From assembly GCF_009192725.1 (NCBI RefSeq), contig NZ_VOHR01000003.1, positions 1 through 46,114 of the forward strand: DNA of 46,114 nt, read 5' to 3'. Positions 1,462 through 23,501 of this stretch are shown piece after piece (the first letter of the stretch is position 1; each line of letters starts with the position of its first letter). This DNA comes from Segeticoccus rhizosphaerae. Its GTDB lineage: Bacteria; Actinomycetota; Actinomycetes; Actinomycetales; Dermatophilaceae. The position numbers were made by a program, and so were the translations under genes. Under the pieces are notes generated by a model. That model had not been told where the DNA came from, made no database searches, and was given only the letters and a program-made list of their open reading frames with translations.

Positions 1462-2055
1462 ATGGACAGCTGGCTCATCGTCGGGCTCGGGAACCCCGGG
1501 CCGACCTACGCGGGCAACCGCCACAACATCGGTGCGATGGTCGTCGACGAGCTGGCCGCGCGGGCCGGGGCGTCGCTGCGTGCGCACAAGGCTCGGGCAC
1601 AGGTCGCGGAGGTGCGACTGGGGACGTTGCCCGGCGGGGCGCCGGGACCCCGCGCGGTCCTCGCCCGTCCACTCTCCTACATGAACGAGTCCGGCGGACC
1701 GGTGGCCGGGCTCGTGCAGTTCTTCAAGATCCCGCTGGAGCGGATCATCGTCGTGCACGACGAGATCGACATACCGTTCGCCTCGGTGCGGCTCAAGCGC
1801 GGAGGCGGTGAGGGCGGACACAACGGCCTGCGCTCCGTCAGCAAGTCGCTGGGGAGCAAGGACTACCTGCGGGTGCGACTGGGGGTTGGCCGGCCGCCGG
1901 GTCGGATGGACGCCGCAGCCTATGTGCTCAAAGACTTCTCGGGCAGCGAGCGCAAGGAGCTGCCCTTCCTGATCGGCGATGGGGTCGACGCGGTGGACGA
2001 CCTGGTCGCGCTCGGTCTCGAGACGACGCAGCAGCGCTTCCACTCCCGTCCCTAG
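1462..2055 (+). CDS. pth: Peptidyl-tRNA hydrolase
   Basis: A 197-residue Pth that hydrolyses peptidyl-tRNAs released from stalled ribosomes. It shows the family signature [17 protein letters not shown] at the N-terminus with the catalytic His (H22 region) and the conserved Asn. The [17 protein letters not shown] segment carries the catalytic Asp, followed by GGHNGLRS and the [11 protein letters not shown] substrate-binding stretch. Length is normal for the family. In many actinobacteria pth is directly followed by mfd; here about 44 kb of polysaccharide genes separate the two. Confidence 0.97.
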
Positions 2056-2179
2056 CACCCGTCGTCGCTATTGTCGCTCGGCCGAACGGACTAGGTTGAC
2101 CAGATCTTTACTGTTTGGCTGCGAACCCATGACCATCACGGCTAGCGTCTCCTCAGGCCTTCAACCAGGGGAGCTGAGC

Positions 2180-3760
2180 ATGACAGACACCGTCGACGTG
2201 GGAGCGCAGGTGCCCCACGTGACGAGCCTGCCCGGGCAGCCGGCCGAGATGGTCTCCAGCACCGCCAGCACGGGGCTCCTGTCGCTGTCGCGGCCGCCGT
2301 CGCCCCCTCGGCGCACGTGGGCCGTGTCCTATCAACGCACCGCCGTGGTCCTCGACGTCACAGCCGCGGCGCTGTCTGCCGTCCTGGCTGCTCTGCTGTC
2401 GGGGGTGCTGTCCGGGCTGTTCGGCGAAGGCCATGAGGCCACCGCGCGCCTGTTCTCCCCGACCTACCTGACCATCACCGTCGTCGCCCCCTTCGCCTGG
2501 GTCGCGGGAGTGGCCCTGAGCCGTGGTTACGAGCGCCGGTTCATGGGTGTGGGGACCGAGGAGTTCCGGGCCCTGGCACGGGCGGCAGTGCGGTTGCTGG
2601 CAATCACCGGCTTCATGTCGTATGCCGTGTACAGCCAACGCCCGTTCCTCTCCCGCTGGTTCGTGGTCGTGTTCTTCCCGATCCTGCTGGGCGTGGCGCT
2701 GCTGCTGCGGTTCGCGCTGCGCAAGCACCTGCATCGACGCCGAAGCCAGGGCAAGTCCCTCCAGCGGACCGTCGTGGTCGGACGTGCGGACTCGGTCATC
2801 GGTCTCATCCACGAGCTGCGCCGAGTCCCGAGCCACGGTCTCGAGGTCGTGGCGGCCTGCACGTCGAGCCTCGACCTGGACGCGGAGGAGCCCTCGTCGG
2901 TGATCGGTGTCCAGATGTTGGGGAGTGTGCGGACCGCGCTGGACGCAGTCGACCTGGTGGATGCCGAAGTGGTGGTGGTGGCCAGTCACTCCGAGATGAC
3001 GGGACCGGAGCTCCGTCGGCTGTCGTGGGGCCTGGAATCCCGCAATGTCGATCTCGTCGTGTCGCCGGGCATCATCGAGGTCGCCGGTCCGCGCCTGTCG
3101 ATCCGTCCGGCCGCAGGCCTTTCCCTCCTCCACGTCGAGCGGCCCACGGTGGACGGCGGGCGGCTGCTGGGCAAGATCATCTTCGACCGCGTGATGTCGG
3201 TGCTCATCTCGCTGCTCATCCTCCCCGTCGCCCTCGTCGTGGCCCTGGCCATCAAGGTCGACTCTCGAGGCCCGGTCTTCTTCCGGCAGGACCGGATCGG
3301 TGCTCGGGGCGAACCCTTCGAGATGTTCAAGTTCCGGTCCATGGTGGTCGACGCGGAGGCTCGGCTGGCGGACGTGTCTGCACAGGGCAACGATGGCAAC
3401 GGAGTGCTCTTCAAGCAGCGCAACGACCCCCGGGTCACGCGGGTGGGTCAGTTCATCCGGCGCTACTCGCTGGACGAGTTGCCCCAGCTCATCAACGTGC
3501 TCAAGGGCGACATGTCGCTGGTCGGCCCCCGTCCGCCGCTGCGCTCCGAGGTGGAGGGCTACGAGCCGGACGCGGTGCGGCGACTGCGGGTTCGGCCCGG
3601 GCTGACCGGTCTGTGGCAGGTCAGCGGCCGCAGCGACCTGTCCTGGGACGAGTCTCTCCGCCTGGACCTGCGGTATGTCGACAACTGGTCGATGATTCTC
3701 GACCTGCAGATCCTGTGGCGGACCGCGCGAGCTGTCCTCCGCGGATCGGGCGCGTACTGA
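2180..3760 (+). CDS. Polyprenyl-phosphate glycosyl-1-phosphate transferase (WbaP/CpsE type)
   Basis: A 526-residue initiating enzyme that transfers a sugar-1-phosphate from a UDP-sugar to undecaprenyl phosphate at the inner membrane, starting repeat-unit synthesis. Four hydrophobic segments (about 50-175) precede a Rossmann-like cytoplasmic domain (about 190-320). A re-entrant helix and the catalytic domain follow (about 335-526). Catalytic-domain signatures visible are FRQDRIG, FKFRSM, the DPRVTRVG-IRRYSLDELPQL block, GDMSLVGPRPP, PGLTGLWQVSGR and LDLRYVDNWS. The ATG at 2180 is chosen for the AGGGGAG site 7 nt upstream; the longer frame overlaps pth and is not plausible. It is the first gene of the locus. 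The sugar cannot be assigned from sequence. Confidence 0.95.
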   Translation: MTDTVDVGAQVPHVTSLPGQPAEMVSSTASTGLLSLSRPPSPPRRTWAVSYQRTAVVLDVTAAALSAVLAALLSGVLSGLFGEGHEATARLFSPTYLTITVVAPFAWVAGVALSRGYERRFMGVGTEEFRALARAAVRLLAITGFMSYAVYSQRPFLSRWFVVVFFPILLGVALLLRFALRKHLHRRRSQGKSLQRTVVVGRADSVIGLIHELRRVPSHGLEVVAACTSSLDLDAEEPSSVIGVQMLGSVRTALDAVDLVDAEVVVVASHSEMTGPELRRLSWGLESRNVDLVVSPGIIEVAGPRLSIRPAAGLSLLHVERPTVDGGRLLGKIIFDRVMSVLISLLILPVALVVALAIKVDSRGPVFFRQDRIGARGEPFEMFKFRSMVVDAEARLADVSAQGNDGNGVLFKQRNDPRVTRVGQFIRRYSLDELPQLINVLKGDMSLVGPRPPLRSEVEGYEPDAVRRLRVRPGLTGLWQVSGRSDLSWDESLRLDLRYVDNWSMILDLQILWRTARAVLRGSGAY

Positions 3761-4067: not shown

Positions 4068-5063
4068 ATGACCGAATTGAGCCGCCGAAGCGTGATCAAA
4101 CTGGCGTCCGTGGCAGCAGTCGGAGCGGCGGTTTCGTCCCCGCTCCAGGCCCACGCCGCAACACGCGCCACAACCCAAGCAACCGCAACAAACACAGCGT
4201 CAGGAGCGCGCTGGCCGGGACATCGACCCGGCAAGATCGTCCTTGGTCTGTCGTGCCAGGGAACCCTGGAGGACACCATGCGGCGGACCGGGCCCGTCGG
4301 CCTCTACCGGACCTACTACAACTGGGACGGTGGCCGAGGTGAGAACAACCGGATTCGCAGCGACTACGCGGCCGGACGGCTGTCCTGGATCTCGTTCAAG
4401 CCGCCGTCGTCCGCACCAGGTGGCTGGAACCAGGTGTCGTCGGGGCGCTTTGACGCGGATCTGCGCGCCCGGGCTCGCCGTTACGCGAGCCTGCCCGGGC
4501 CCATCGTCGTCACGTTCAACCACGAACCGGAGAACGACCGGACGGGCACCGGTGCGGAGTTCGCGCGGGCGTGGTGTCATGTCTACGATGTGATGAAGAA
4601 GGAGACCGGGCTCAAGAACGTCGCATCGGTTCCCATCATCGGTGAGTGGACCTTCAACCCGCAGAACCGGCGTCAGGACCCCGCCGACTGGGTCACCGGC
4701 CCGATGCTGGATCGCTGCGACTTCCTGGGGCTCGACATCTACCAGAACGCGGGCGGTGCTGGGTACGACGAACGACTGGGCCGCATCCTCGACTGGATGG
4801 CGGCGCGCGGCCACAGCGACAAGATGGTCGGCGTCGCCGAGACCGGGACGACGGACGCGTACCGCTACGACCAGCCGGGCGAGTGGTGGACCCAGCAGTG
4901 GAAGTGGTCCATCGCCAACACGGACAAGCTCGGCGTCATCTCCTACTTCAACAGCCTGCGGCACAACAACTCGGGCAATAACTGGCTGCTGTGGCAGTCC
5001 CAGGCCAAGCTCAACGCCTTCAAGGCATCGCTGCAGTCATCGATGTCCGTCGGCCTCGTGTGA
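4068..5063 (+). CDS. Tat-exported GH26-like glycoside hydrolase
   Basis: A 331-residue secreted protein. The N-terminus carries a twin-arginine signal, SRRSVIKLASVAAVGAAV, ending near QAHA-A (about residue 30). The body resembles (beta/alpha)8-barrel glycosidases of the GH26 type. NHEPEND (about 144-150) would hold the acid/base Glu, and GVAETGT (about 262-268) the nucleophile Glu. LGLDIYQN, TGPMLDRCDF and aromatic WWTQQWKW segments fit a glycan cleft. It probably trims or releases the polymer made by this locus. A possible CRP-type site precedes it. It shares the fold logic of the lipoprotein at 25180-26214. Its 3' end overlaps the convergent flippase gene by 27 nt. Confidence 0.7.
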   Translation: MTELSRRSVIKLASVAAVGAAVSSPLQAHAATRATTQATATNTASGARWPGHRPGKIVLGLSCQGTLEDTMRRTGPVGLYRTYYNWDGGRGENNRIRSDYAAGRLSWISFKPPSSAPGGWNQVSSGRFDADLRARARRYASLPGPIVVTFNHEPENDRTGTGAEFARAWCHVYDVMKKETGLKNVASVPIIGEWTFNPQNRRQDPADWVTGPMLDRCDFLGLDIYQNAGGAGYDERLGRILDWMAARGHSDKMVGVAETGTTDAYRYDQPGEWWTQQWKWSIANTDKLGVISYFNSLRHNNSGNNWLLWQSQAKLNAFKASLQSSMSVGLV

Positions 5064-6707
5064 CCTTCGTTCCTCGCCCGGCCTCCGCCTGCTTGCTGCG
5101 GCCGGGCGAGGACGGCCCCTCCCGCGCAGGGCGAGCAGCTCGTGGAGCCGCAGGACCTTTCGGCACCACCGCAAGCCGACCAGGTAGGCGACGAACCCGA
5201 CCGCTACGCTGAGGAAGAGGGACCACCAGCCGGTGCCGATCAGTGCCCGTCCGACGACGGGAACTGCGCCGAAGCAGACCGAGGCCAGCACGAGCGCCGT
5301 GATCGTGCCGGGTCCGAAGGGATGCAGCCGAAGGAAGACCCCCACCTGCAGGAGCGGTATGACGTTCGCCGCCACGATCGCGACGGCCCACCCGATCGCC
5401 GCGCCGGTGATCCCGTGTGAGGGGATGAGCAGCAGGTCCAGGCCGAGGTTGATGGCAAACGCGATCAGGACGTTGACAAGGTTCCAGCTGGTGCGTCCCG
5501 CCATGGTCAGGACCATGTCGACCATCCCGCAGGCGGTGCCGAGCAGCATCGAGCTGCAGAGAATGATGACGACCATGGAGCCGGCGTCGTACTGGCTCCC
5601 GAAGATGTCAAGGACAGTCGGGGCAAAGACGATCAGCAGCAGGTAGATCGGCCAGGTCAGGCACACGAGCCACGCCGTCGACACCTGGTAGAGCTCGGAC
5701 GCGGCGCCGACATCCTTGCGGGCCAGCGTCTCGCCGAGGTGCGGCTGGACGCTCTGGGAGACCGCGCCACCGGCCATCTGGCCCAGGGCCAGGAATCGGG
5801 TTGCCGCGGCATACAACGCCGCTTCGGGGATGCCGGCCAAGGCGCCCACCAAGACGACGTCGAGACGCTGCATCGCGACCTGGGCCACGCTCGCGAGGGC
5901 ACGCGGCACACTGAACCGCCAGAAGTCCTTCGTCGGCCGGAACTCGTGGTCCACGGTGGCTCCGCCGGCGCGGACCCTCATCGTGGTCCAGATCCGCCAC
6001 CCCACCCCCGCGAGGATGACGTACGGGACGGCCCAACCCACCGCGAGGACCGCAGACCTGCCGCCGAACACGATGGCCAACAGCACGAGGCCGACTTGCA
6101 GGACCGGCCTGCTCATCTGGTCCAGCAGCGCGTTGATGCGCATGGTGCCGAGCCCGCGGGTGCCGGACACGGCCAGGTTGAGCAGCCCGGCGCATGGGAT
6201 GAAGATGGCGACCGCACGGAGGTAGCTCGTGAACTCGGCCTCGTGTCCGGAGGCCAGTACGCGTGCCAGGGGTCCGGCGAAGACGAACATGGCCACGGCC
6301 ATCACCACGCCGACGACTAGCACCGGACGGAGCGCAACCCGCATGTAGGAGGCGTAGCGGTGCAGCTCACCTCGTGCCCGCGCCCCCGAGAGGAAATACA
6401 CCAGGCCCGTGTTCGTCCCCAGCTGCCCGAGGCTGGTGGCGAGCAGGAACAGCGACGTGACGGAGAAGAAGATACCGGCGGTCGACTGTGACGTGAGCCG
6501 GGTCACCAGCACTGTCAGGCCGAAGTTCGCCATGGCCGCCACGACTGCCCCGGCCAGGTTGATGGTGCTTCCCCGCGCGACGCGACTCAAGTCGCGAGGG
6601 GGCGGGTGCGATGTGCCGTGCGCGGGTGTCTCGGCGGCGGCACGGGAGGCGACGCCGGACGACCTGTGCTTTGGGGAGCGCGTCGGGGGCGGTTTGATGG
6701 GGTTCAT
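5037..6707 (-). CDS. Polysaccharide flippase (Wzx/MATE-like), first copy
   Basis: A 556-residue polytopic membrane protein of the oligosaccharide-flippase superfamily. It would move the undecaprenyl-PP-linked repeat unit across the membrane. A basic, Pro-rich cytoplasmic tail (1-45) leads into the first helix (STINLAGAVVAAMANFGLTV). About 12-14 hydrophobic helices follow, with family-typical segments such as LVTRLTSQSTAGIFF and a C-terminal Arg-rich tail. The ATG at 6707 overlaps the stop of the upstream kinase gene (ATGA), so the two are translationally coupled. A second, diverged flippase lies at 32766-34088, suggesting two lipid-linked substrates. Its 3' end overlaps the convergent GH26-like gene. 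Confidence 0.88.
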   Translation of the reverse strand: MNPIKPPPTRSPKHRSSGVASRAAAETPAHGTSHPPPRDLSRVARGSTINLAGAVVAAMANFGLTVLVTRLTSQSTAGIFFSVTSLFLLATSLGQLGTNTGLVYFLSGARARGELHRYASYMRVALRPVLVVGVVMAVAMFVFAGPLARVLASGHEAEFTSYLRAVAIFIPCAGLLNLAVSGTRGLGTMRINALLDQMSRPVLQVGLVLLAIVFGGRSAVLAVGWAVPYVILAGVGWRIWTTMRVRAGGATVDHEFRPTKDFWRFSVPRALASVAQVAMQRLDVVLVGALAGIPEAALYAAATRFLALGQMAGGAVSQSVQPHLGETLARKDVGAASELYQVSTAWLVCLTWPIYLLLIVFAPTVLDIFGSQYDAGSMVVIILCSSMLLGTACGMVDMVLTMAGRTSWNLVNVLIAFAINLGLDLLLIPSHGITGAAIGWAVAIVAANVIPLLQVGVFLRLHPFGPGTITALVLASVCFGAVPVVGRALIGTGWWSLFLSVAVGFVAYLVGLRWCRKVLRLHELLALRGRGRPRPAAASRRRPGEERRSHEADGHR

Positions 6708-7966
6708 GGCTGGCCAGGATCGACGGACGGGGCGGTCCGGCTGGATGGGGGACCGGGAAGGTCGACCAGGGACGAGACCAGTTCATCCAGCTCCGAGAGC
6801 AGCCAGGTCACCAGCGGCCCCTTCTTGGCGCCGGCCTCCTCCTGGCCGTCACGAACGTGACGATGTCCGAGGTGCAACAGGTAGAGCACCACGACCGCGG
6901 GCGCCTCTGCCGTGGCGACGCGGAACGGCTCCAGGAGCTCGGGCGCTCGCACCGCCAGCTGCCTGATGGCCTCGCTGGGGGTGAGACCGTCTCGTCGGAC
7001 GGCGTGGTGGAAGGTGAAGTGCAGGGCGTCGAAGCCGATGGGCACGTCACACTCGAATCGCTCCCAGTCCCACACCACGGCGGTGTCGCCCTGGGTCGTC
7101 ATGTTCCACGGCGTCCAGTCGCCGTGCCAGGCACTCGGGATGATGCGGATCCGGTCTGCGGCGGCGTCGACGCGTTCGGCGAATCCCCACAGCCGGGCGC
7201 CGCCTGCACCACTGAGCGACTGCAACGAGGAGAGGAGCCGGCTCCAGTACGGAGACTCGGAGAGGGCCACGGCACGGCCCTCGAAGGTCCGAGCCAGTTC
7301 GAGCATGGCGGCCCGCCGGGTCCTGACGCCGGGGTCTCCCGACGCAACGGTGTCCACGGGGCTCAAGAGGAGGTACTCCAGACCGTCCCAAGTTCCGTTC
7401 GCGAGGACGCGGGGACTGACCAGATGGTGCAGGTGACGAGCCTCGAGCATGCGCAGCGCCTCGGCCTCCTGGCGGACGAGGCGAGCGGTGAGCTCGTTCC
7501 ATCCGACCTTGGCGAAGGCGATGGTGCGACCACGGCGATCGAGGAGCTCGAGCACCGGCTTGCGGTTGGCGCGGGGTGGACCAAACCGTGCGGAGGCCGT
7601 CAATGGCAGGCGCAAGGAGGTGCTGAGGTGTTGGAGGAGGGAGCCTCTCGCGCCGGGATCCTCGACCGTCACCTGGTGGGGCCACAGTCGGAGTGCCCCG
7701 GACTGTCCCGCGATCGCGGCGACGACACCACGAACGGTCGTCGGCAACGAGGACAGGCGCGGCAGGCCACGGAGTGCCGCGGTGGTGACCCGCCGAGGTC
7801 CCAGTGGAACGAGGAAGGCCGGGCGCTGGGCCGATGGGAGCGCGGCGTAGCGCGTCGTCTCCCCGGTCCACAAGAGGGCGGAGACGGAGGTCAGGCCGTC
7901 CGGGAAAGTGGCGCCGGTCAGATTGCCACTCGGCGCGACGTCCTCCGAGGAGGAGGCCCCCCTCAT
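6704..7966 (-). CDS. APH-fold (aminoglycoside phosphotransferase-like) small-molecule kinase
   Basis: A 420-residue protein whose C-terminal part (about 145-400) has the APH/choline-kinase fold. It shows the catalytic loop HGDWTPWN (281-288), a metal-binding WDWERF (299-304), and FAKVGW (151-156) with a candidate ATP-binding lysine. The first ~140 residues are an extension without a recognised domain. Such kinases phosphorylate sugars or amino alcohols; the substrate here is unknown. It sits between the chain-length gene and the flippase, overlapping each by 4 nt (ATGA at both ends). That points to a role in assembly or precursor supply rather than drug resistance. A second APH-like kinase occurs at 30267-31304. 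Confidence 0.75.
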   Translation of the reverse strand: MRGASSSEDVAPSGNLTGATFPDGLTSVSALLWTGETTRYAALPSAQRPAFLVPLGPRRVTTAALRGLPRLSSLPTTVRGVVAAIAGQSGALRLWPHQVTVEDPGARGSLLQHLSTSLRLPLTASARFGPPRANRKPVLELLDRRGRTIAFAKVGWNELTARLVRQEAEALRMLEARHLHHLVSPRVLANGTWDGLEYLLLSPVDTVASGDPGVRTRRAAMLELARTFEGRAVALSESPYWSRLLSSLQSLSGAGGARLWGFAERVDAAADRIRIIPSAWHGDWTPWNMTTQGDTAVVWDWERFECDVPIGFDALHFTFHHAVRRDGLTPSEAIRQLAVRAPELLEPFRVATAEAPAVVVLYLLHLGHRHVRDGQEEAGAKKGPLVTWLLSELDELVSSLVDLPGPPSSRTAPSVDPGQP

Positions 7967-9552
7967 CCCGCCGTCGGATCGACCGCTCGCGCGGTGACTC
8001 GGGCCTCGGCCGAGAGCCCTGTCGGCTCGGCCACCACCGTGTCACCTGCCTCGCCCGAATGGTGGGAGTCGGAACGCCGCCGCCGGCGAGGCGCGGCCGG
8101 CGCCACGGCGGCGCCGATCACCGAGGCGCCGAGCCGATCGAATCGGCCGAGGGCGTTGGACACCTGACCATGGGTGGTTCGTCCTTCGGTGACGATCATG
8201 AGGGTGTTGTCGCAAGCCGTCGCGGCAGCGTCCCCGTCGGCACTACTGGCCGAGGCCGAGGAGACGATGACGTAGTCGTGGCCCGTGGTGAGCTCCTCGA
8301 TCACCGTACGCAGGCGGGGGCCTGCGTACAGCTCGCGGGAGGACACCGGCTTGAGGCCTCCTCGCAGGATGGTGAGGCCTCTGGCCTGCGTGAGCACCGC
8401 ACCGATCGGTGCGTCATCTCCGAGCACGTCGGACAGCCCAGGTCCGGCGGGAATGCCCAGCTCACGCTCGATCGCGTCGTCGCCGGGATCGGCCGCGACG
8501 AGCGCGACCTGGAAGTCGGACTTGCGCAGTGCGAGCGCCAGTTGGCTGGCTACCGTTGCGGCGCTCTCGTCCGCGGAGACGCAGGTGACTGCAAGTGAGC
8601 CGGGTGCTTGGGCGTTGGCCACCACGCCGGCGCGTAGCCTGCGGTAGGCCTCGAACTCCTGCTCTTCCTTCGCCTCGCTTCCGTGGCGACGCCTCGGTTG
8701 GCGACGCAACCGGGCGAAGACGGGGATCCCGGCCATCTCGGGACCGTCCTCGGCGCGCACCAGGTCGCGGCGGCGTTCGCGTGTCACGGCCAGCACGGCT
8801 CCCATCAGGCCGCCGAGCAGTGTGGTGACGAGGATGATCAACCACGGGTTCAGTCCGTCGCGGTTGGTCGGCGTCGAGGGTTCGGTGATCACCGAACCCG
8901 GGTCGGACGCAACTGCCTGTGCGCCGCTCAGGTCATCGTTGAGGGAAGCCAGCCGGTCGGCATACAGCTGGACCTGCTGGGAGGCATAGGAGCGGGTGTC
9001 GGTGCTCTTGACCGCCTCGCTCGAAGCGGTCTTGAGGTCGGCCTGCGCGGCGTCGATCTGCTTCTTCAGGCTGTCGATCTCGGTCTTCTGGGTCGTCGCG
9101 GCCCGCTCACTGCGGTACTTCAGGTACGTGTCGGCGAATCCCTGCGCACCCTCCCGGGCCCGGTCTGCCGTGGTGCTGGTGAATTCGATCTGGATGATCT
9201 GGGCACCGGTCGGGACCTTCACGTTCAGCTGCTCACCCGGTCCGGGGACCGTGCGGCCCAGCTGTTTGCTGAGCTGGGTCGTGACCGCAGGGATGTCCAC
9301 CAGGCCCGACTCCGTCGCCATGGCGACGGTCAGCTGGGCGCCGTTGGACGTTGCCGTGTCCTGGGACAACGGGTTGCCCGGCAGCGGCTTGATCAGGATC
9401 GCCGATCTCGCGGTGTAGCTCGCTGCTTGGGATCCCGTGTAAGCGACCCCGGCCGCTGCCCCGATGACCAGCATGACCAGAAGCAGTAGCACGTTACGGC
9501 GCAGGGCCCCCACGATGAGTGGAGAGCGCGTCTCAACCTCGGATGTATCCAC
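7963..9552 (-). CDS. Wzz-type chain-length protein with degenerate BY-kinase domain
   Basis: A 529-residue polysaccharide co-polymerase. TM1 is about 17-38, the extracytoplasmic Wzz domain 40-235 (coiled coil about 150-210) and TM2 about 237-256. A cytoplasmic CpsD/BY-kinase-like domain (290-485) keeps the EAYRRLRAGV entry motif. The Walker A is lost (TCVSADESAATVAS has no GK-S/T). The Walker B aspartate is replaced (YVIVSSASASS). The Arg-rich tail has no tyrosine cluster, so it should not be an active tyrosine kinase. I chose the GTG at 9552, preceded by GGGGAAGG. The frame stays open to 9669, but those 39 residues look like leader DNA. It is first in an operon with a kinase and a flippase. 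Confidence 0.85.
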   Translation of the reverse strand: MDTSEVETRSPLIVGALRRNVLLLLVMLVIGAAAGVAYTGSQAASYTARSAILIKPLPGNPLSQDTATSNGAQLTVAMATESGLVDIPAVTTQLSKQLGRTVPGPGEQLNVKVPTGAQIIQIEFTSTTADRAREGAQGFADTYLKYRSERAATTQKTEIDSLKKQIDAAQADLKTASSEAVKSTDTRSYASQQVQLYADRLASLNDDLSGAQAVASDPGSVITEPSTPTNRDGLNPWLIILVTTLLGGLMGAVLAVTRERRRDLVRAEDGPEMAGIPVFARLRRQPRRRHGSEAKEEQEFEAYRRLRAGVVANAQAPGSLAVTCVSADESAATVASQLALALRKSDFQVALVAADPGDDAIERELGIPAGPGLSDVLGDDAPIGAVLTQARGLTILRGGLKPVSSRELYAGPRLRTVIEELTTGHDYVIVSSASASSADGDAAATACDNTLMIVTEGRTTHGQVSNALGRFDRLGASVIGAAVAPAAPRRRRRSDSHHSGEAGDTVVAEPTGLSAEARVTARAVDPTAG

Positions 9553-9574
9553 AGACTCGGTAGCCTTCCCCAGT

Positions 9575-9604
9575 GATCCCGTCAGGATTGATCCCGTCAG
9601 GATT
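9575..9604. repeat. 15-bp perfect tandem duplication in the wzz leader
   Basis: The unit GATCCCGTCAGGATT is repeated twice without a gap (9575-9589 and 9590-9604). On the minus strand it lies between a -10-like TACGCT (complement of 9607-9612) and the Shine-Dalgarno of the gene starting at 9552, so it would sit at the transcript start or leader. If translation began further upstream it would encode ILTGSILTGS. Confidence 0.8.
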
Positions 9605-9728
9605 TCAGCGTAGAGCGCCGACTGATGCCTTGTGGCCGCTTTCGGCAATCCCGGGCGACGCTTGAACACGGCACGCGCGCAGACGGTTACGATGCTGCTG
9701 CCTTCACTACATCGACGATGGGAACACC

Positions 9729-10229
9729 ATGCCCGACCGGGAACTCGGCGGCCCTGTGTCGAGCCCGTCGGCGGCGGGCCGACGCGTCCTCTTGGTGAGC
9801 TCGAGCGGGGGACACCTGGCCCAGCTGCTCACCCTGAAGCCGTGGTGGGAGACCCTGGAGAGGTCGTTCGTGACCTTCAGCACCCCGGACGCGGTGTCGC
9901 AGCTCGGGGACGAGCAGGTCGACTTCGCCTTTCACCCCACGACTCGTAACATCCCCAACCTGATCCGCAACTTCGGTGTCGCGGCGAAGGTGCTCCGGAA
10001 GCGGCGGCCGGACCTGATCGTCTCCACCGGCGCCGCTGTCGCCGTGCCGTTCTTCGTGTTCGGGAGAATCCTCGGGATCCCCACCGCCTACATCGAGGTC
10101 TTCGATCGCCTGGACTCCAGGACGTTGACCGGCCGGCTCTGTCGCCCGCTCAGTTCCCTGTTCTGTGTCCAGTGGGAGCGGCAGCAGCGCCTCTATCCCG
10201 GGTCGACGCTGATCGGACGGTTGCTGTGA
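9729..10229 (+). CDS. Alg14/PssD-like glycosyltransferase subunit
   Basis: A 166-residue protein of the Alg14/PssD/Cps14F family, the membrane-anchoring, acceptor-binding half of a split GT-B glycosyltransferase. VLLVSSSGGHLAQLL (about 21-35) is the family's glycine-rich start. RRPDLIVSTGAAVAVPF and the GIPTAYIEVFDR segment are also diagnostic. It forms one enzyme with the next gene, whose GTG overlaps its TGA by 4 nt. PssD/PssE and Cps14F/G pairs add the second sugar (GlcA or Gal) to lipid-linked hexose; the sugar here is not assignable. A weak promoter-like pair, TTGAAC (9662-9667) and TACGAT (9688-9693), precedes it, but the spacing is 20 bp. Confidence 0.88.
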   Translation: MPDRELGGPVSSPSAAGRRVLLVSSSGGHLAQLLTLKPWWETLERSFVTFSTPDAVSQLGDEQVDFAFHPTTRNIPNLIRNFGVAAKVLRKRRPDLIVSTGAAVAVPFFVFGRILGIPTAYIEVFDRLDSRTLTGRLCRPLSSLFCVQWERQQRLYPGSTLIGRLL

Positions 10230-10765
10230 GCTTGTCGATTCTGGTGACCGTGGGCTCCGACTACCACCCGTTCAACCGGTTGGTGGGCGGCGTCGAACGC
10301 TGGCTGGGACAGCCGTCCGCCGCGGGACTGGAGGTCTTGTTCCAGTACGGCACGGCCGATCGTCCGGGGCGGGGGGAATGTCACGACTACCTTGCGCACG
10401 ACGAGCTGATCGACCGACTGAGCTCGAGTGACATCGTCGTGACGCAGGGCGGCCCGATGGGCATCCTCGAAGTGCGGCGGTGCGGACGCATCCCGATCGT
10501 CATGCCGCGACTGCATGACTTGGGTGAGGTGGTCGACGACCACCAGGTGGCCTTCTGCCGCCAGTTGGCCAGCACTGGTGACATCGTGCTCGTGGAGAAC
10601 GAGGACGAGCTGGTCGAGGCGCTGGACAAGGCGGTCGCCGATCCGACCCGCCTGGTGCTGACGGGTTCCACGGGTGATACCGACGCCCGGCCGGCCGTGG
10701 AGGCGTTCGCCCGAGCAGTGGAGCTGCTGCCGCCTCGGCGTCGCAACCGGTGGCGCCGCCGCTGA
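10226..10765 (+). CDS. Alg13/PssE-like glycosyltransferase catalytic subunit
   Basis: A 179-residue GT28 C-terminal-domain protein, the nucleotide-sugar-binding partner of the preceding Alg14-like subunit. It begins SLSILVTVGSDYHPFNRLV. It shows the donor-binding TQGGPMGILEVRRCGRIPIVMPRL block (about residues 72-95) and DDHQVAFCRQL, typical of the MurG/Alg13 fold. The GTG at 10226 is inside the ATG-less GTGA overlap with the upstream stop, the usual coupled arrangement. A basic C-terminal tail (PPRRRNRWRRR) may contact the membrane. The gene ends 13 nt before the convergent deacetylase gene. Confidence 0.88.
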   Translation: MSLSILVTVGSDYHPFNRLVGGVERWLGQPSAAGLEVLFQYGTADRPGRGECHDYLAHDELIDRLSSSDIVVTQGGPMGILEVRRCGRIPIVMPRLHDLGEVVDDHQVAFCRQLASTGDIVLVENEDELVEALDKAVADPTRLVLTGSTGDTDARPAVEAFARAVELLPPRRRNRWRRR

Positions 10766-10778
10766 CGGCTGTGTGTGC

Positions 10779-11621
10779 TCAGGCCGAGGTGGGTGCCCAC
10801 CAGTCGTGCCGTGACGGATGCGTGCCACGCTTCTTGAGGCCAGCCCTGCGTAGCCCGCGGGACGCCACGGCCCGTGCCGAAGAGGTCAGCTCCTGCCGGG
10901 CGGTCCGCGCCGACTGCAACATGGAGGCGAGATCCGCCGCCATCACGTCCTGTGTCACCGTGAGCCGGGGAATGGCGTACGCGTCGTCGGCTGGGGTGCT
11001 AACGAGATCGCGCACGGCGCACGCGTTCGAGAAACCCAGCTGTTCCACCAGACGCCGGACCGTCGCGTTGGCATACCCGAAGGGGTAGGCGAACGACGTC
11101 ACTGCTCTCCCGAGGTGATCCTCGAGCAGGGCCTTGGACAGGCCGATCTCGCGGGTCATCGCGCGGCGGTCCAGCAGGTCCATCTGCGGGTGGGAGTGGC
11201 TGTGCGCCCCGCACTCCACCCCGTGCCCCGAGATCTCGCGCAGCTGGGACCACGACAGCAGCGACCGGTGGTCCTCCGCCTCGTCGGCCAACCAGGCGCT
11301 GCGCCCGCCGACGTAACCTGTGGGCACGTACAGCGTGGCCACCATGCCGTGGCTCGCCAGAGCGGGCAGGGCCGCGTCGGCGAAGTCGGCGAAGGCGTCG
11401 TCGACGGTGATCGCCACGAGACGCTCAGGCAAGGGTGTCCCCTGCGCGCGCATCTGCGCCAGGGCGGTGATTGTCGTCGTGGAGTAGCCGAGCGAGTGCA
11501 GCGCCGCCAGGTGCTCCGCGAACAGGCGGGGAGGGACGACGAACTCACGGAAGGCGTCCGTCGCCTCCGAGCTCACGCTGTGGTACATCAGCACGGGTAC
11601 GTGCTGGGGGGAGCCGGTCAC
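10779..11621 (-). CDS. Polysaccharide deacetylase (NodB homology, CE4)
   Basis: A 280-residue enzyme with the NodB fold. It opens VPVLMYHSVS, then motif 1 TVDDAFADF (the Asp pair binds the metal; the usual Gly after DD is Ala), motif 2 HSHSHPQMD (metal-binding His) and motif 3 FAYPFGYAN. It would remove N- or O-acetyl groups from amino sugars. No signal peptide or TM is seen, so it may act on a cytoplasmic lipid-linked precursor; an N-deacetylated amino sugar would be a substrate for N-sulfation by the operon's sulfotransferases, which is inference. The GTG at 11621 overlaps the stop of the polymerase fusion (GTGA). It is the last gene of the 17854-10779 operon. Confidence 0.88.
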   Translation of the reverse strand: MTGSPQHVPVLMYHSVSSEATDAFREFVVPPRLFAEHLAALHSLGYSTTTITALAQMRAQGTPLPERLVAITVDDAFADFADAALPALASHGMVATLYVPTGYVGGRSAWLADEAEDHRSLLSWSQLREISGHGVECGAHSHSHPQMDLLDRRAMTREIGLSKALLEDHLGRAVTSFAYPFGYANATVRRLVEQLGFSNACAVRDLVSTPADDAYAIPRLTVTQDVMAADLASMLQSARTARQELTSSARAVASRGLRRAGLKKRGTHPSRHDWWAPTSA

Positions 11622-14137
11622 CGCACGATCACCACGCCCACCGGCTCCAGGTCCAGCCGGCGCAGGTCGCGCCGCATCCGGGCCAGGTCGTCAGCCCTGG
11701 TCCGGGGGGACGCAACGATGACCGCGTGCGAGAAGCCGGTGGACAACGTGGCGAACTCTCGATTGAGCGCCGACGCCGCGCGACAGGCTTCCCGATCACG
11801 GTCATCGCCCCAGAACGTGGAGATCGGGCTGTGGTGGGCGAGCGGCTCCGCCAGCGAGGAAACACGGGAACAGTCCTCCACCGATGTGTCCGTTCGCCGC
11901 AGGTCCACCCGCCCGATCACGGGCAGGCCGCCGAGGGCGACCGCAGACCCGCGCCGTCCCAGCCGCCGCTTGGACCCACCGGCGTAGAAGGCCCACGTCA
12001 TCCCGACGAGGAGCCCGAGCATCAGGCCGCTCCCCGCCTTCTTGAGGTATCCATCCCTGGGACGGGCGACCTGGACGCCGCTGGTCACCTCACCGGCGAC
12101 CGGACGAGTGGCCTGGATCCGGGCGATCGTCGCAGCGGCCTTGCGCTCCTGGAAGACGAGGCCGGCCAGCCGCTTGCGCAGCACCGGGTTGACGTTGCTC
12201 CCGGCGTCCGCGACGACCTGCCGAGTGGTGCGGACCTGCTCGGTCAGGGCAGCGTCCTTCTGCTGCATGACCTTCAGGTAGGCGCCACTGCTCGCCTTGA
12301 TCGACTTGTTCCGGCTTTCGAGAACCGCCGCGACGGCGGCCTCGACCCCCGCCGTCGCACGAACGGCGTCCGTGTCCTGGTAGCGGATGTTGAGGATGCG
12401 CGTGTTTGTCTGGGCAGTGATCCTGATCCGTTCCCTGATCTGGGAAGAAGGTTCGTCGCTGCCGATCGCTGAGGCGACCGCCTCCACCACGGGGTCGGAG
12501 GTGGCGAGCTGGGCTTCGCTGTCCATGGACAGCGAGCGCACGCCAGGGAGGGCGCGTGCCTCGCCGGGGAGGAACACGGACTGCCGGGCGAAGACCGGCG
12601 GACCCTGCCAGGCCTGCAGGCCCGCACCAGCGGCCCCGCCGATCGCCGCGAGCAGCACGATGGGCACGAGACGTCTGTTGATGGGGTTGGTGAGCTCACT
12701 GAGCGGGCGGTCGATCGGAGCCGCTGGCCGGCGGTTGCGCAGCCGCGGCGCGCGCAACCATGCACCATGGCGCTCGGCGCGTTCTCGCCACAGCAGCCCG
12801 ACCGCGATCATGCCGAGGAACAGTCCGGGCCCGACGGCGCCGTAGACGGGCATGGTCACGAACTGACAGACGAGGACGCACAGTCCGGCGATCGCCGTCG
12901 GCGACGTGAGCCGGATGTGGGCCCAGGCCTGGATGAGCATGAATCCCAGGTAGAGGAGGGTGCCGACCAAGCCGGTCGCGAAGAGCAGGAGCCACAGCTG
13001 GCCCTGGGTACCGAGTGGGGGAGGCGAACACTTCGGGCACTGGGCCGTCGCCCCGGCGGCGATCGAGACGAAGTTGCCCTGCACGTCACGGGTGCTGCCG
13101 AAACCGATCACCGGGGACCCGCTCAGGGCGCTCTCCGCGGTAAGGGTCCCGAGGTTGGTCCGGCCCTGGTTGCTGTGTGGGGTGTGGATCCGGTCGGTGA
13201 TCAAGGACCCGAGCGGTGACACCGCGACGAGGCCACCGCCGAGCGCGAGACACACCAGCAGTGTCAACAGGGCGCGCCCACGTCCGATCAGCGCCAGTCG
13301 AACTGCCACGAACAGGCCGCTCGCGATCAGGGCCAGCCACATGCCGCGGTTGAGCGAGGACACGATGGGGATCGCGGCCAGCGCCAGGACCGCGGGCGCG
13401 GCCCAGCGACGCCAGCCGGCGTCACGGCGGAACCACTCTAGGACCAGGAACGGCATGGTGCAGGCGATTGCCAGGCCCCACTCATTGGTGAAGGTGAAGG
13501 GCGCGCTCGGGCGCGGTTCGGCGTAGCCCAGGAAGTCCTGGATCTGTGCGGTCGCCGGATGGATGAGGCTCCTGACGAATCCGTTCGAGGCCAGACCGTG
13601 GGGCAGGAGCATCTCCAGCACAGACGGGAACTGCAGGTGGGGCAGGAACACCCCCAGCAGACCGCCGCCCACCAGCACGAGGAACAGGTAGCTCAGAGCC
13701 CGGGTGATCCGACGAGTGGGAAGCGTCTTGCGTGTGTTGCCGACGTAGAGCAACGCGACCGTCGCGCACAGGTACCAGAGGGCGCGATAGGCGAACGTCA
13801 CGTAGCGAGCGCTGCTGTTGCCGGGCACCGCACCCGGTGCGTCCACCTGCAGCACGAAGACGCCACTCACCAGCCAGACGAGGAAGAGCAGCCACGTGCC
13901 GAAGCCCTGGGGCACCCGGATCTGCCGCTGCCGCACCAGGTGCAGCAACATCGGGACGCTGAAGATGAGGAACGCGAACTCCTGCAGGCCAAGCAGCCAC
14001 CACAGCGGCATACCGGCGAACAGGGCGACCAATGGCCAACCGGGCCGGAAGAACTTGAAGCTCGCCCGCACGGGTCGGCTTCTCTGTGGCACCAGGCGCG
14101 GGCGTGGCGGCGCCGTGGCCAGCTCGGACGCAGTCAT
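11618..14137 (-). CDS. O-antigen polymerase/ligase (Wzy_C) fused to a Wzz chain-length module
   Basis: An 839-residue protein with two membrane modules. Residues about 35-452 form a polytopic Wzy/O-antigen ligase unit with the SSLNRGMWLAL signature (260-270) and a long extracytoplasmic loop (305-385). Residues about 490-510 are a TM, 511-695 a Wzz-like extracytoplasmic domain with a coiled coil (about 605-675), and 701-721 the closing TM. A cytoplasmic tail (722-839) retains BY-kinase-like pieces (CRAASALNREFATL, HAVIVASPRTRADD) without a Walker A. So the polymerase and its length regulator are one chain. The frame is uninterrupted, with composition uniform through the junction. The ATG at 14137 shares 1 nt with the upstream sulfotransferase stop (TGATG). 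Confidence 0.85.
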   Translation of the reverse strand: MTASELATAPPRPRLVPQRSRPVRASFKFFRPGWPLVALFAGMPLWWLLGLQEFAFLIFSVPMLLHLVRQRQIRVPQGFGTWLLFLVWLVSGVFVLQVDAPGAVPGNSSARYVTFAYRALWYLCATVALLYVGNTRKTLPTRRITRALSYLFLVLVGGGLLGVFLPHLQFPSVLEMLLPHGLASNGFVRSLIHPATAQIQDFLGYAEPRPSAPFTFTNEWGLAIACTMPFLVLEWFRRDAGWRRWAAPAVLALAAIPIVSSLNRGMWLALIASGLFVAVRLALIGRGRALLTLLVCLALGGGLVAVSPLGSLITDRIHTPHSNQGRTNLGTLTAESALSGSPVIGFGSTRDVQGNFVSIAAGATAQCPKCSPPPLGTQGQLWLLLFATGLVGTLLYLGFMLIQAWAHIRLTSPTAIAGLCVLVCQFVTMPVYGAVGPGLFLGMIAVGLLWRERAERHGAWLRAPRLRNRRPAAPIDRPLSELTNPINRRLVPIVLLAAIGGAAGAGLQAWQGPPVFARQSVFLPGEARALPGVRSLSMDSEAQLATSDPVVEAVASAIGSDEPSSQIRERIRITAQTNTRILNIRYQDTDAVRATAGVEAAVAAVLESRNKSIKASSGAYLKVMQQKDAALTEQVRTTRQVVADAGSNVNPVLRKRLAGLVFQERKAAATIARIQATRPVAGEVTSGVQVARPRDGYLKKAGSGLMLGLLVGMTWAFYAGGSKRRLGRRGSAVALGGLPVIGRVDLRRTDTSVEDCSRVSSLAEPLAHHSPISTFWGDDRDREACRAASALNREFATLSTGFSHAVIVASPRTRADDLARMRRDLRRLDLEPVGVVIVR

Positions 14138-15024
14138 CAGGCCGCCGGCTCGCGCGTGAGGCTCCAGGGCGGCGTCTCGTGCAGCAGCTCCGCGAGGCGC
14201 TCGTTGGCTTGCCGAAAGTGGTCCGCGAGCCTCGCGCGTGCGCTTGCGCTCATGTCCTGCACCGCCGGCCGCGCGTTGTAGCGGTCGAACCGCTGCGGGG
14301 ACACGCTGCCCAGGCCAAGGAACGCGCCAAGCGCGGCGAACTCCTGCCCCGGTTGCTCGAAGAACCGCTCGCTGTACATGATGTGCAGTTGCTCGCGCGG
14401 GAAGAGCTGCAGAATCCGCTCGAGCTGGTCCGCGTAGTCACCGCGGCGGCGGTAGGCATGGTGCCGATGGGTGAAGCTCTCGTATGTCGGGTCGCGCCGC
14501 ATCCGGTCGTACTCACCCAGGAGCCGCTCGTCCTCGAGGGCCAGCGCGGTGTCGAAGTCCTCGCGCTCGAACCCCCGGGCGCTCTCGTGCTTCCACGCGG
14601 AGTAGGCCCGCTCCACGGGGTCCCTGAGCATGGCGACCAGCTTGACGTCCGGCATCTCGCGCGCCAGCCTCTCCATCGCAAAGGGATGGAACATGTAATA
14701 GCCGCTCGCCTCGAAGACGACGGGGTGACCGTGTTGCCGGGTCCGCAGCCGGGCCGAGGCCCGCAAGGGGAAATGTCCGCGGTACCAGTCGAACCCGCGG
14801 TCGTAGTTGACGTCGAAGTAGTTGATGCCCTTGTGGAAGGTCGGCCGCACCACCTGCGGGTGCTCCATCAGCGCCCGGAACAGGGAGGTGGTGCCGCACC
14901 GCTGGCCACCGATCATGATGAAGTCGGGCAGCACCCGCGCGCCGGCCGTGGCGCCCCCGAGAGCGACGTATCCCCGGCGGCCGAGTCGTTGCAGCGGTTC
15001 GGGGACCGCCTTGCGCACGCTCAT
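14137..15024 (-). CDS. PAPS-dependent sulfotransferase (heparan sulfotransferase-like)
   Basis: A 295-residue cytosolic sulfotransferase. The 5'-phosphosulfate loop is FIMIGGQRCGTTSLF (about 35-49). The 3'-phosphate-binding segment is MLRDPVERAYSAWKHE. GINYFD and FEASGYYMFHP follow the order seen in heparan N-/O-sulfotransferases that act on polysaccharides. It would transfer sulfate from PAPS to the polymer or its lipid-linked precursor. The ATG at 15024 is chosen because it overlaps the upstream TGA (ATGA) and has GGGGTGGAG 6 nt ahead; an ATG at 15042 is the alternative. It is followed with 1-nt overlap by the polymerase fusion, tying sulfation to polymer assembly. Confidence 0.88.
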   Translation of the reverse strand: MSVRKAVPEPLQRLGRRGYVALGGATAGARVLPDFIMIGGQRCGTTSLFRALMEHPQVVRPTFHKGINYFDVNYDRGFDWYRGHFPLRASARLRTRQHGHPVVFEASGYYMFHPFAMERLAREMPDVKLVAMLRDPVERAYSAWKHESARGFEREDFDTALALEDERLLGEYDRMRRDPTYESFTHRHHAYRRRGDYADQLERILQLFPREQLHIMYSERFFEQPGQEFAALGAFLGLGSVSPQRFDRYNARPAVQDMSASARARLADHFRQANERLAELLHETPPWSLTREPAA

Positions 15025-15875
15025 GATCCGCTCCACCCCCATCGTTCCATCACCGGGATGCCGAAGTCGGTCTCGAGTCTGCGGACCTCGGAGTCGAGCT
15101 GCTCGCGCACGTACATCGCGTCCTCGGCCGACAGCCGCGGGGCCCGGTCACCCAGTTGTTTGTAGAGCAGCCGATGGGTCAGCGGTGACCCCTTGACCTT
15201 GCCGACCAGCTTGGCGCCGTCGTGGTCGCGCACCACTCTTGCGGCAGTGCGGATCGCTCGGGCAAGAGGCACGAAACGTGCGCCGCTGGCGGGCAGTCTG
15301 CTCTCGAGCGCCGACTCGTCCAGCGTCATGGGGGTCAGGCCGAGCCAGCGGACGACCTGGTTCGTGAAGGCCTGTGGGTCAGCCTTGAGGTCATCGAACA
15401 GGGCGATGAGCAGTTGGTCGCGGTCCAGGTGTTCCAGGAAGCGAGACAGCTGGGTTGCGTAGCGACCGTGTTCGAGCAGCTCGGGACGGGTCTGCAGGGT
15501 GGCCCGGAACGTCGTCTCACCCTCGCCGTGCTTGAGCATGTAGAGGTAGGACGAAAAGGCCCGTTCGGCCGGCTCCCGCAGGGTCACCATCACACGAGGC
15601 CGACCAAGGTCCGCGGTGATGCGTTTCGGAGCGTCCGGGCAGGCCAGGTAATCGGGGCACACCTCGCCGACGACCCGATGCTGCGGGGTGGCGCCGCGGA
15701 ACTGGGACGCGTACCAGCTCACCCCGCGGTCGTAGTAGCGGTCGAAGTAGTAGAGGTCCTTCGCGGGGGAGAGGAAGATCTGGGGGTGTTGTGCGAGCGC
15801 CATGTGCAGCCACGAGGAGCCCGCCTTGTCGGGACCCACGTAGAGGAAGTTGGGCAAGGTGGCCGAATGTGCCAT
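15021..15875 (-). CDS. PAPS-dependent sulfotransferase, second in operon
   Basis: A 284-residue sulfotransferase. The PAPS loop FLYVGPDKAGSSWLH (about 10-24) has GSS in place of the common GTT. The 3'-phosphate site is TLREPAERAFSSYLYM. DLYYFDRYYDRGVSWY and VVGEVCPDYL match the polysaccharide/tyrosylprotein sulfotransferase style. It is clearly paralogous to the next gene downstream but diverged in the middle third, suggesting a different position or sugar. The ATG at 15875 shares 1 nt with the upstream stop (TGATG); the longer open frame lies inside the upstream gene. Its stop overlaps the next start by 4 nt. Confidence 0.87.
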   Translation of the reverse strand: MAHSATLPNFLYVGPDKAGSSWLHMALAQHPQIFLSPAKDLYYFDRYYDRGVSWYASQFRGATPQHRVVGEVCPDYLACPDAPKRITADLGRPRVMVTLREPAERAFSSYLYMLKHGEGETTFRATLQTRPELLEHGRYATQLSRFLEHLDRDQLLIALFDDLKADPQAFTNQVVRWLGLTPMTLDESALESRLPASGARFVPLARAIRTAARVVRDHDGAKLVGKVKGSPLTHRLLYKQLGDRAPRLSAEDAMYVREQLDSEVRRLETDFGIPVMERWGWSGS

Positions 15876-17854
15876 CAGGACAGGCCCCTTCCCGTGAGGC
15901 GCGCAGCCTTGAGAGCGATGACCGGCTCCAGGCCGGTCGCCGCCTGCGCCACGGCGAGGTAGGCGTGGGGAGCGAGCGGATAGCGAACCAGGGCCTTCGA
16001 TGCCGTCCGCAGCGCTGCCCGGCGCCGCCCCAGCGAGGACTGGGCGAACGCTATCTGCCCGAGGATGCGGGCGTGACCTCGGCGGCTCGCGCGCAGTTCC
16101 GGGTGGATCGTCAGGAGGTACTCGAGGGCCTGGATGTTGTTGTCCTGACGCGCCAGGAACCACGACTGGACGTTCTTGCGAATGTCGGCCAGCGGCTCCT
16201 TGACCACCCCGATCTGGCCAACTCTGGCGACGCGAAGCACGAATTCGTAGTCCTCCCCGTACGCGTGCGGCAGCGTCTCGTCGTAACGTCCGGCCTTGGC
16301 GAAAGTGTCCCGCCGCATCATCAACGTGGAGGAGTGCAGCTCCTTCACGCGGTTGTGGACGAGAGTGGACAAGGGGATCCGGGCGGCACGCGCCGGCCAG
16401 TCCCTGACCCGGTCGGGGAAGAGCAGTCGGATGCCGGAGCCCACCACCAGCAGGTCGGGCTGCTCGCGCAGCAGCTGCACCTGCCTGGTCACCTTGTCGG
16501 TGTGCCAGAGGTCGTCGTCGTCGCAGGTGGCGATGAACTCCCCCTTGGCCACCTCGAGTCCGCTGTTGCGCGAGCCGGCAAGGCCGGGCAGGTGCCTGTT
16601 GCTCAGGACCTTGATCTCACGGTCGACCGTTCCCCGCGCCGTCAGCGACTGGTCCTCCGGCTCCTGGTCGTGGATGACAAGGATCTCGATGGGACCGGCA
16701 TAGTCCTGCGCGACGATCGTGTCCAAGGTCTCGCGGACGAGCTCCGGCCGACCGCGGGTGGAGACCACCACGGAGACCATGCCGGTGATACCGCCGGAGT
16801 CAGCTGTTGGCGATTCGGCACCTGCGGCCGGTTCGAGACGACTGTTCACAGTGATCAAGGGTTCCGTTCTCTGGGCAGAATTCGGCGTAGCGCTCGGCGT
16901 GGACGGCGACGGGTCACGGCGACTGCCGAAAGGCAGGCCGATCGTCGAGGCGATGAGCCGGTCGCGGCGGGAGAGGTGGTTGCGCCAGGCCTCGTCGAGG
17001 CGAAGCTGCACCGTGCCCTCGACGAATCTCGAAGGATTGCCGGACAGTCCGTGGCTGGACCCGAGACTGACCTCACCGTCCCGGACGTGGTCGAGCCAAC
17101 CGGGCTGAGGTGGGAGGCCGACCTCGGCCAGCACACGGCTGACGTGACCCGGCGCGTCCCGCACGAGGTCCTCGTAGTGGACCAGAGCCGTCGGGATCCG
17201 CCTGGTCCGGAGCAGGCCGGTCTCGGCGTGGTTGACCGACCAGCGAGCAGCCGTGATGGCGATGCTCCGGCGTTCCATCTTCTCGACCTCGTGTGTGGCC
17301 TGGGGCCGCTCGACATCCTTCTGCATGGAATAGGCCACACCGCGGACGTCACGCACGACGTGGACCACCCGAAGGTTGATCTCGGATCCGCAGAGTGCGA
17401 GCGCCTGGGCCGGCCACTTGCTGGCGTCCACCACATGGCTTGCCCCTGCCGTCGCCAGGACGGCGGAGTACAGCGTGGCGTACAGACCGCGGTACTCCGC
17501 AGCGCGCGCGCGGAAGCCCGCGGCCCGGATCGGGCTCAGCAGCTGGGCGATGTGCCGCTGCCGCGCCACCCCTGCCTGCAGCGCCCCCATGTGGTCGAGG
17601 ACGTCGGTGCTCCAGCCGCCGAAGGCACGCTCGCCGACGGAGACCCAGAACGGACACTCCGAGAAGTGCTCGCCGCAGCCGCACCGCTCGTCGCCACGCG
17701 CCACCCGGCGGGGTATGTCGATCAGCTCGCCGACGTTGACGAACCCGGGCACGCTGCCCAGCACCCGCTCGAGCAGGGTGCTGCCGGACCGGCTGGCCCC
17801 AGCAAGGTAAACGACACTCGGCGGGGCGGTTGCCCCGACGCCCTCCACGCTCAT
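15875..17854 (-). CDS. Sulfotransferase-GT2 glycosyltransferase fusion
   Basis: A 659-residue two-domain enzyme. Residues 13-308 form a sulfotransferase with PAPS loop YLAGASRSGSTLLE (16-29), a CGCGEHFSECPFW cysteine motif (58-70) and 3'-phosphate site HVVRDVRGVAYSM (165-177). A Ser/Pro/Thr-rich linker (309-355) leads to a GT2 domain (357-575) with VSVVVSTRGRPELV, AGSRNSGLEVAKGEF and the CDDDDLW metal motif (444-450). HAYGEDYEFVLR follows. The tail (580-659) is helical, TPR-like. It could add a sugar and sulfate in sequence. The ATG at 17854 has GGGGAAGGA upstream. It heads the operon running to 10779. There is no frameshift or stop at the junction. Confidence 0.87.
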   Translation of the reverse strand: MSVEGVGATAPPSVVYLAGASRSGSTLLERVLGSVPGFVNVGELIDIPRRVARGDERCGCGEHFSECPFWVSVGERAFGGWSTDVLDHMGALQAGVARQRHIAQLLSPIRAAGFRARAAEYRGLYATLYSAVLATAGASHVVDASKWPAQALALCGSEINLRVVHVVRDVRGVAYSMQKDVERPQATHEVEKMERRSIAITAARWSVNHAETGLLRTRRIPTALVHYEDLVRDAPGHVSRVLAEVGLPPQPGWLDHVRDGEVSLGSSHGLSGNPSRFVEGTVQLRLDEAWRNHLSRRDRLIASTIGLPFGSRRDPSPSTPSATPNSAQRTEPLITVNSRLEPAAGAESPTADSGGITGMVSVVVSTRGRPELVRETLDTIVAQDYAGPIEILVIHDQEPEDQSLTARGTVDREIKVLSNRHLPGLAGSRNSGLEVAKGEFIATCDDDDLWHTDKVTRQVQLLREQPDLLVVGSGIRLLFPDRVRDWPARAARIPLSTLVHNRVKELHSSTLMMRRDTFAKAGRYDETLPHAYGEDYEFVLRVARVGQIGVVKEPLADIRKNVQSWFLARQDNNIQALEYLLTIHPELRASRRGHARILGQIAFAQSSLGRRRAALRTASKALVRYPLAPHAYLAVAQAATGLEPVIALKAARLTGRGLS

Positions 17855-18147
17855 GCCGATCCTTCCCCTCAATGACCCGCCCAGCGTAGGTCGGTCCGGG
17901 GGAATTCGAAGGGCGATTCGGCAAAGTGGCACGGACCCCCTGGAAGGGGCCCTCGGGTGACTAGTCAATTCGGGCCATTTTGGGCTGATGGTCGTCTGAC
18001 TTCCTCGTTTTCCTGACGCGGGGCCCTCCGAGGAGGTTCTCTGGCACCCGTACCGCCATAGGCGGTGGCCGTTGTGGCCCGAAGGGGAAGAGCGGACAAA
18101 TCAGGGGCTCATGTCGATGAGCCGCTCATGGTGATGAGGTGACTGCC
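17855..18147. promoter_or_regulatory. Divergent intergenic region with a hairpin before the PKD protein gene
   Basis: About 290 bases separate the minus-strand sulfotransferase operon from the plus-strand secreted protein, so both promoters should be here. No clear -35/-10 pair was found. AT-richer stretches occur around 17960-18015. A perfect hairpin, GGCTCAT-GTCG-ATGAGCC (18106-18123), lies just upstream of the AGGTGA ribosome-binding site (18137-18142) of the next gene. It could affect its translation. No gene was seen. Confidence 0.4.
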
Positions 18148-22731: not shown

Positions 22732-22741
22732 AGGAAGTGTC

Positions 22742-23461: not shown

Positions 23462-23496
23462 CCGACAACCAGATTCGGGCGGTAGCCGACAACCAG
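23455..23496. repeat. 18-bp direct repeat at the lipoprotein 3' end
   Basis: GCGGTAGCCGACAACCAG occurs at 23455-23472 and 23479-23496 (24-bp period). The first copy contains the TAG stop of the lipoprotein gene; the second lies in the short gap before the convergent sulfotransferase. It looks like a small local duplication. Confidence 0.8.
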
Positions 23497-23501
23497 CTCG
23501 C

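Follow-up and report, generated by a model that had tools for sequence, protein, structure and literature searches.

A conserved single-chain fusion of a Wzy-type module with a PCP (Wzz) unit in Segeticoccus rhizosphaerae and related actinomycetes

In the 46,114-nucleotide stretch of Segeticoccus rhizosphaerae DNA analysed here (the window), one gene almost certainly encodes a Wzy-PCP fusion, in which a polymerase-type membrane module and a PCP (polysaccharide co-polymerase, Wzz) unit are carried on the same chain. Taken as a whole, the explanation that we favor, with a probability of about 0.55, is a natural fusion of a polymerase with a short-type PCP, by which the polymerase would be held at a length-setting, likely mixed, ring. 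The frame runs on the minus strand from an ATG at 14137 to a stop codon at 11618-11620 (839 codons), and the plus-strand translation of the same region is interrupted by stops. The gene, its parts and its neighbors are the following:

11618..14137, minus strand: fused Wzy-PCP gene, a single open frame of 839 residues, conserved in 24 genomes counting this one
12764..14059, minus strand: putative polymerase module of Wzy_C/WaaL fold, residues 27-458, with about 12 TM helices (WaaL 7tpg fold match; Wzy_C in family members)
12671..12763, minus strand: linker rich in Arg, on the cytoplasmic side, with a juxtamembrane helix, residues 459-489 (from the model and the linker sequences across fusions)
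11972..12670, minus strand: predicted PCP (Wzz) unit, residues 490-722, made of TM1, a periplasmic alpha/beta domain with two long helices, and TM2 (from the model, structure matches and Wzz in family members)
11621..11971, minus strand: kinase-like tail in the cytoplasm, residues 723-839, without Walker A; its alignment to Wzc reaches Wzc residue 697
10779..11621, minus strand: polysaccharide deacetylase, the next gene downstream, common to the loci of split relatives (PF01522, 3.6e-23; synteny)
9729..10765, plus strand: Alg14/Alg13-like glycosyltransferase pair (PF08660, PF04101)
7963..9669, minus strand: free long PCP, Wzz plus pseudokinase domain (Pfam Wzz 1.5e-5; kinase-family matches below cut-off)
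5037..6707, minus strand: Wzx-type flippase (PF01943, 4.5e-11)
1979..3760, plus strand: initiating sugar-phosphate transferase (PF02397, 1.6e-70)
14137..17968, minus strand: three sulfotransferase genes, of which the third also encodes a fused family-2 glycosyltransferase (PF00685/PF13469/PF00535)

Both modules are seen in the predicted model of the full chain (pLDDT 75, pTM 0.70), which places the last Wzy helix at residues 437-462, TM1 at 490-511, the periplasmic part at 512-694 and TM2 at 695-722, followed by an alpha/beta tail. These boundaries agree within a few residues with the initial annotation, which had proposed a Wzy_C membrane module and a full Wzz unit in one 839-residue frame. 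The N module is predicted to adopt a WaaL-like membrane fold, with about 12 helices and a large external loop, and its best match among solved structures is the WaaL O-antigen ligase (7tpg; Z 21.5, 357 residues, rmsd 4.7), the next ones being FtsW/RodA. Few Wzy structures exist for comparison with this module, and a sequence search of the polymerase-module profile against solved structures gave no match. The Wzy_C family (PF04932) is found at residues 250-397 with an E value of 5.9e-5 and 23.3 bits against a cut-off of 31.7 in the whole-protein search, and the genome scan scores it at 33.3 bits, which exceeds this cut-off; it is matched in 9 of 14 full-length family members. Moreover, a module with about 12 helices would end in the cytoplasm, where the PCP begins, a topology that agrees with the fusion, as does the Arg-rich linker of the model.

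For the C module, the model predicts the PCP architecture, in which a periplasmic alpha/beta domain with long helices lies between two TMs. When predicted alone, this module keeps an intact fold (pLDDT 83.8) and gives the same structure matches as when taken from the full chain, the best being Wzc, WzzB, WzzE and KpsE. Wzz similarity had been expected over residues 480-720, and this is borne out by those structures and by Wzz (PF02706) matches in the C modules of 8 of 16 members (best 1.8e-5), but not by a Pfam Wzz match in the window copy, which is too divergent to match alone. Also, one family member matches the CspC chain-length family (5.6e-9). At TM2, PCPs carry a Pro/Gly-rich motif, SPx11GXMXG; the window protein has P-x10-GLMLG, a spacing one residue short of that motif, and the family consensus SGLMLG. 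The tail was described from the outset as kinase-like, which is correct for its fold, but no P-loop or Walker A was found in it, and a degenerate fold of this kind gives no ground for assigning a kinase function. Wzc (PCP-2a), the best fold match of the C module, likewise has a PCP unit followed by a kinase-fold domain; however, it lacks a polymerase module and has an active P-loop kinase and a Tyr tail, both absent in the window fusion.

A profile search for both domains in one protein across actinomycetes, as proposed in the initial annotation, recovered the same fused frame in 23 other genomes, giving 24 with the window, from 11 genera, four families and two orders. These counts come from ORF-level profile searches of 19-kb loci with both modules in one frame and are lower bounds. 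Within the family, 15 of 186 genomes have the fused frame, the window included, and searches of the order and the class brought in G502 and G505 as well as seven genomes from a further family. The wider phylum search returned no fusion, the class and phylum searches having scored two candidates per genome, by which some may be missed. A scan of genome contigs found two relatives and a plasmid search one match, in Nonomuraea, all three unfused.

This distribution bears on the trivial reading, that a frameshift or an assembly artefact joined two genes. The window genome is a 95%-complete draft of 761 contigs, and in one relative (G151, locus L099) a frameshift does break the PCP half, by sequencing error or decay. 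Nonetheless, the single frame recurs in the 23 other genomes (in G151 it is broken within the PCP half), several of the fusion genomes consist of one or few contigs, and the linkers differ among members, so that the fused frame is neither chance nor assembly error; an artefact or lost stop is ruled out for the family, and for the window gene it has next to no probability. Also, dN/dS is well below 1 in both modules in the two pairs compared, being 0.11 and 0.32 for the PCP part. For the linker, one pair gives 0.04 and the other 0.59, from 20 and 30 codons, and these values therefore say little about the linker itself.

The closest unfused comparison is given by G016 and G132 (L110 and L111), where the two modules are neighboring genes with 4-bp overlaps, GTGA and ATGA, instead of the one chain of the window. 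Their loci share the window gene order: polymerase plus PCP, deacetylase, Alg13/Alg14 on the opposite strand, long PCP, an APH-like gene and Wzx. In other relatives, the polymerase, a short PCP and a long PCP are all separate. In the PCP tree, the fused C modules cluster with free short PCPs (support 96), and the long PCPs form a group apart (support 96) that includes the free PCP of the window. Judged from this tree, the fusion is one of a short PCP to a polymerase, in a lineage many of whose unfused relatives already have both a short and a long PCP. The suggestion that the fused protein is an additional co-polymerase is thus only partly right: there is a second, free PCP in the locus, but many unfused relatives already have two, so the fused one is not simply additional.

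The polymerase tree resolves the fused proteins into group A, with the window, 14 fused rows and the split pair, and group B, with 10 fused rows, both with a support of 99. Members of group A have retained a cytoplasmic tail, about 100-150 residues long, and in group B the chain ends right after TM2; the linkers vary, some being as short as 4-7 residues. A single clade of all 24 fused rows alone is rejected by the AU test (p 0.0003). However, a clade of the fused rows plus the two split rows is not rejected (p 0.195), nor is clade A without the split rows (p 0.45). Both histories stay compatible with these values, and the family may have arisen by at least two fusions, or by one fusion with a later fission.

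A separate Wzz had been placed at 7963-9552; the gene is there, but with its GTG start the upper end lies at 9669. This free long PCP is the only other such gene found by the genome search of the window genome. All fusions, that of the window included, have a gene for a free long PCP nearby; unfused relatives have one as well, and its presence alone is thus no argument for mixed rings. At the place of Walker A, its kinase-like domain reads SADESAATVAS (by reading), and the long PCPs of related loci likewise showed no Walker A. From their sequences, the long PCPs make up a group in which PCP and pseudokinase share one chain. A likeness is offered in Myxococcus xanthus by EcpK/EpsV (PMC12004946), a PCP that works with a kinase-like domain without Walker motifs, and both kinase-like domains of the window lack the P-loop as the pseudokinase EcpK does; there, however, the pseudokinase is a separate protein and no polymerase is fused. 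In a mirror-tree comparison, the correlation between the fused PCP and the free long PCP is no stronger than among other genes of the locus, which gives no specific sign of contact between them. An internal translation start that would release a free short PCP from the fused gene was rejected as a candidate: no conserved start with a Shine-Dalgarno match is found at the PCP start, only 4 of the 24 having any start codon with such a match, which makes this product unlikely. Proteolysis may separate the halves after translation.

The window holds an initiating transferase, Wzx, glycosyltransferases, a deacetylase and sulfotransferases, a gene set that points to a Wzx/Wzy-type, probably sulfated, exopolysaccharide as the likely product. 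Five sulfotransferase genes lie within 14137-25228. One of them (15875-17968), a 697-residue frame with a sulfotransferase domain at 53-286 and a family-2 glycosyltransferase at 399-513, is another possible fusion. Between 18139 and 22731, a 1530-residue protein has malectin and PKD domains, and its last two blocks, of about 300 residues each, are near-copies of one another. Sulfotransferase homologues adjoin most related polymerase loci, which points to sulfated polysaccharide in actinomycetes. By its published domain calls, the wps-1 cluster of Actinoplanes missouriensis resembles this locus in gene content, with Wzx, an O-antigen-ligase-like Wzy (WpsJ), Wzz (WpsK), a protein-kinase-like protein, GH26 and two sulfotransferases, and its deletion distorts sporangia (PMC13390465); however, its Wzy and Wzz are separate.

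The proposed mechanism has the N module joining Wzx-flipped lipid-linked repeat units at the outer face of the membrane, whereas the tethered PCP unit would hold this polymerase at the PCP ring that sets the chain length. We infer polymerase rather than ligase activity, chain-length control and a mixed ring from the family, the fold and the gene context. Regarding the activity, the N module could instead be a WaaL-like ligase that moves the finished polymer to an acceptor, with the PCP half presenting the polymer and another protein polymerizing it. Its best fold match is WaaL (at the Z score given above), and its Pfam family is named for the O-antigen ligase. In ligases, the external loop usually has a His in an HN motif before GLLG, but the window protein and most members have Gln at that place (Gln 378; alignment by eye). 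Moreover, no second Wzy_C protein was found besides the fusion in the 95%-complete genome, so that under the ligase reading the polymerase would be undetected or missing. We regard a ligase as quite improbable. As no other Wzy_C protein was found, this sulfotransferase-rich exopolysaccharide locus probably has the fusion as its polymerase, even though the solved structure closest to it in fold is a ligase.

As for the ring, the polymerase and the PCP have been described as separate, interacting proteins (PMC10030265, PMC12004945). In the WzyE-WzzE system of the enterobacterial common antigen they act as a complex, as proposed here, but with about eight WzzE to one WzyE, the Wzy in the ring lumen and no covalent link (PMC10030265), in contrast to the single chain of the window. 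The 1:1 ratio that the initial annotation read from the fusion is right for the chain but need not hold for the complex, where a free PCP could dilute the ring. A chain with one of each module cannot by itself give 8:1, and other PCP subunits would have to join. Given about eight PCPs per polymerase in the published system, and the gene for a free long PCP that accompanies each fusion, a mixed ring of one or a few fused protomers plus the free long PCP would be the likeliest arrangement, although we hold it tentatively, at slightly less than even odds. Alternatively, the fused PCP halves would form a ring of their own, each with its polymerase on the outside, as in the older outer-scaffold model. 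Each chain has one of each module, some linkers are as short as noted above, and the two PCPs belong to separate lineages, so each could form its own ring; by our own arithmetic from a published 57 Å cavity and a Wzy of about 50 Å, there would be just enough room for eight polymerases around the ring, but not within it. However, in the WzzE:WzyE complex one Wzy lies in the lumen, and the authors of that work, done outside the actinomycetes, regard the scaffold model as invalidated (PMC10030265). We see this alternative as unlikely, and likewise the reading that in these actinomycetes several polymerases are fixed to one PCP ring, with stoichiometry and layout unlike the 8:1 lumen model. It could also be that the fused PCP half has lost its part in length control and serves as a mere anchor in the membrane or a scaffold, with regulation left to the free long PCP. 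The C modules diverge faster than the N modules, the chains of group B end right after TM2, and the fusions of L010 and L011 have lost most of the long periplasmic PCP helices, keeping the base domain and both TMs. Against this, the dN/dS of the PCP part is still low in both pairs and the predicted fold is intact in the window copy, and an anchor-only role seems doubtful, to much the same degree as a ligase.

No Wzy-Wzz fusion was found described in the searched literature, subscription papers and domain-architecture databases lying outside the search. By what means a PCP controls the length of a Wzy-made polymer has long been asked, and the published picture comes from separate Gram-negative proteins. 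A single-chain polymerase-PCP fusion does not fit simply with one enzyme per eight-subunit ring, and it is a ready-made construct for asking on which side of the ring wall the polymerase lies, what number of polymerases is required and whether one ring can combine two PCP types. The finding also helps the annotation of sulfotransferase-rich exopolysaccharide loci in actinomycetes. Above all, the coupling of Wzy and Wzz that the initial annotation had read from one gene gains from its conservation in 24 genomes: a natural fusion in two orders, beside lineages with separate genes, is strong evidence that both proteins act together.
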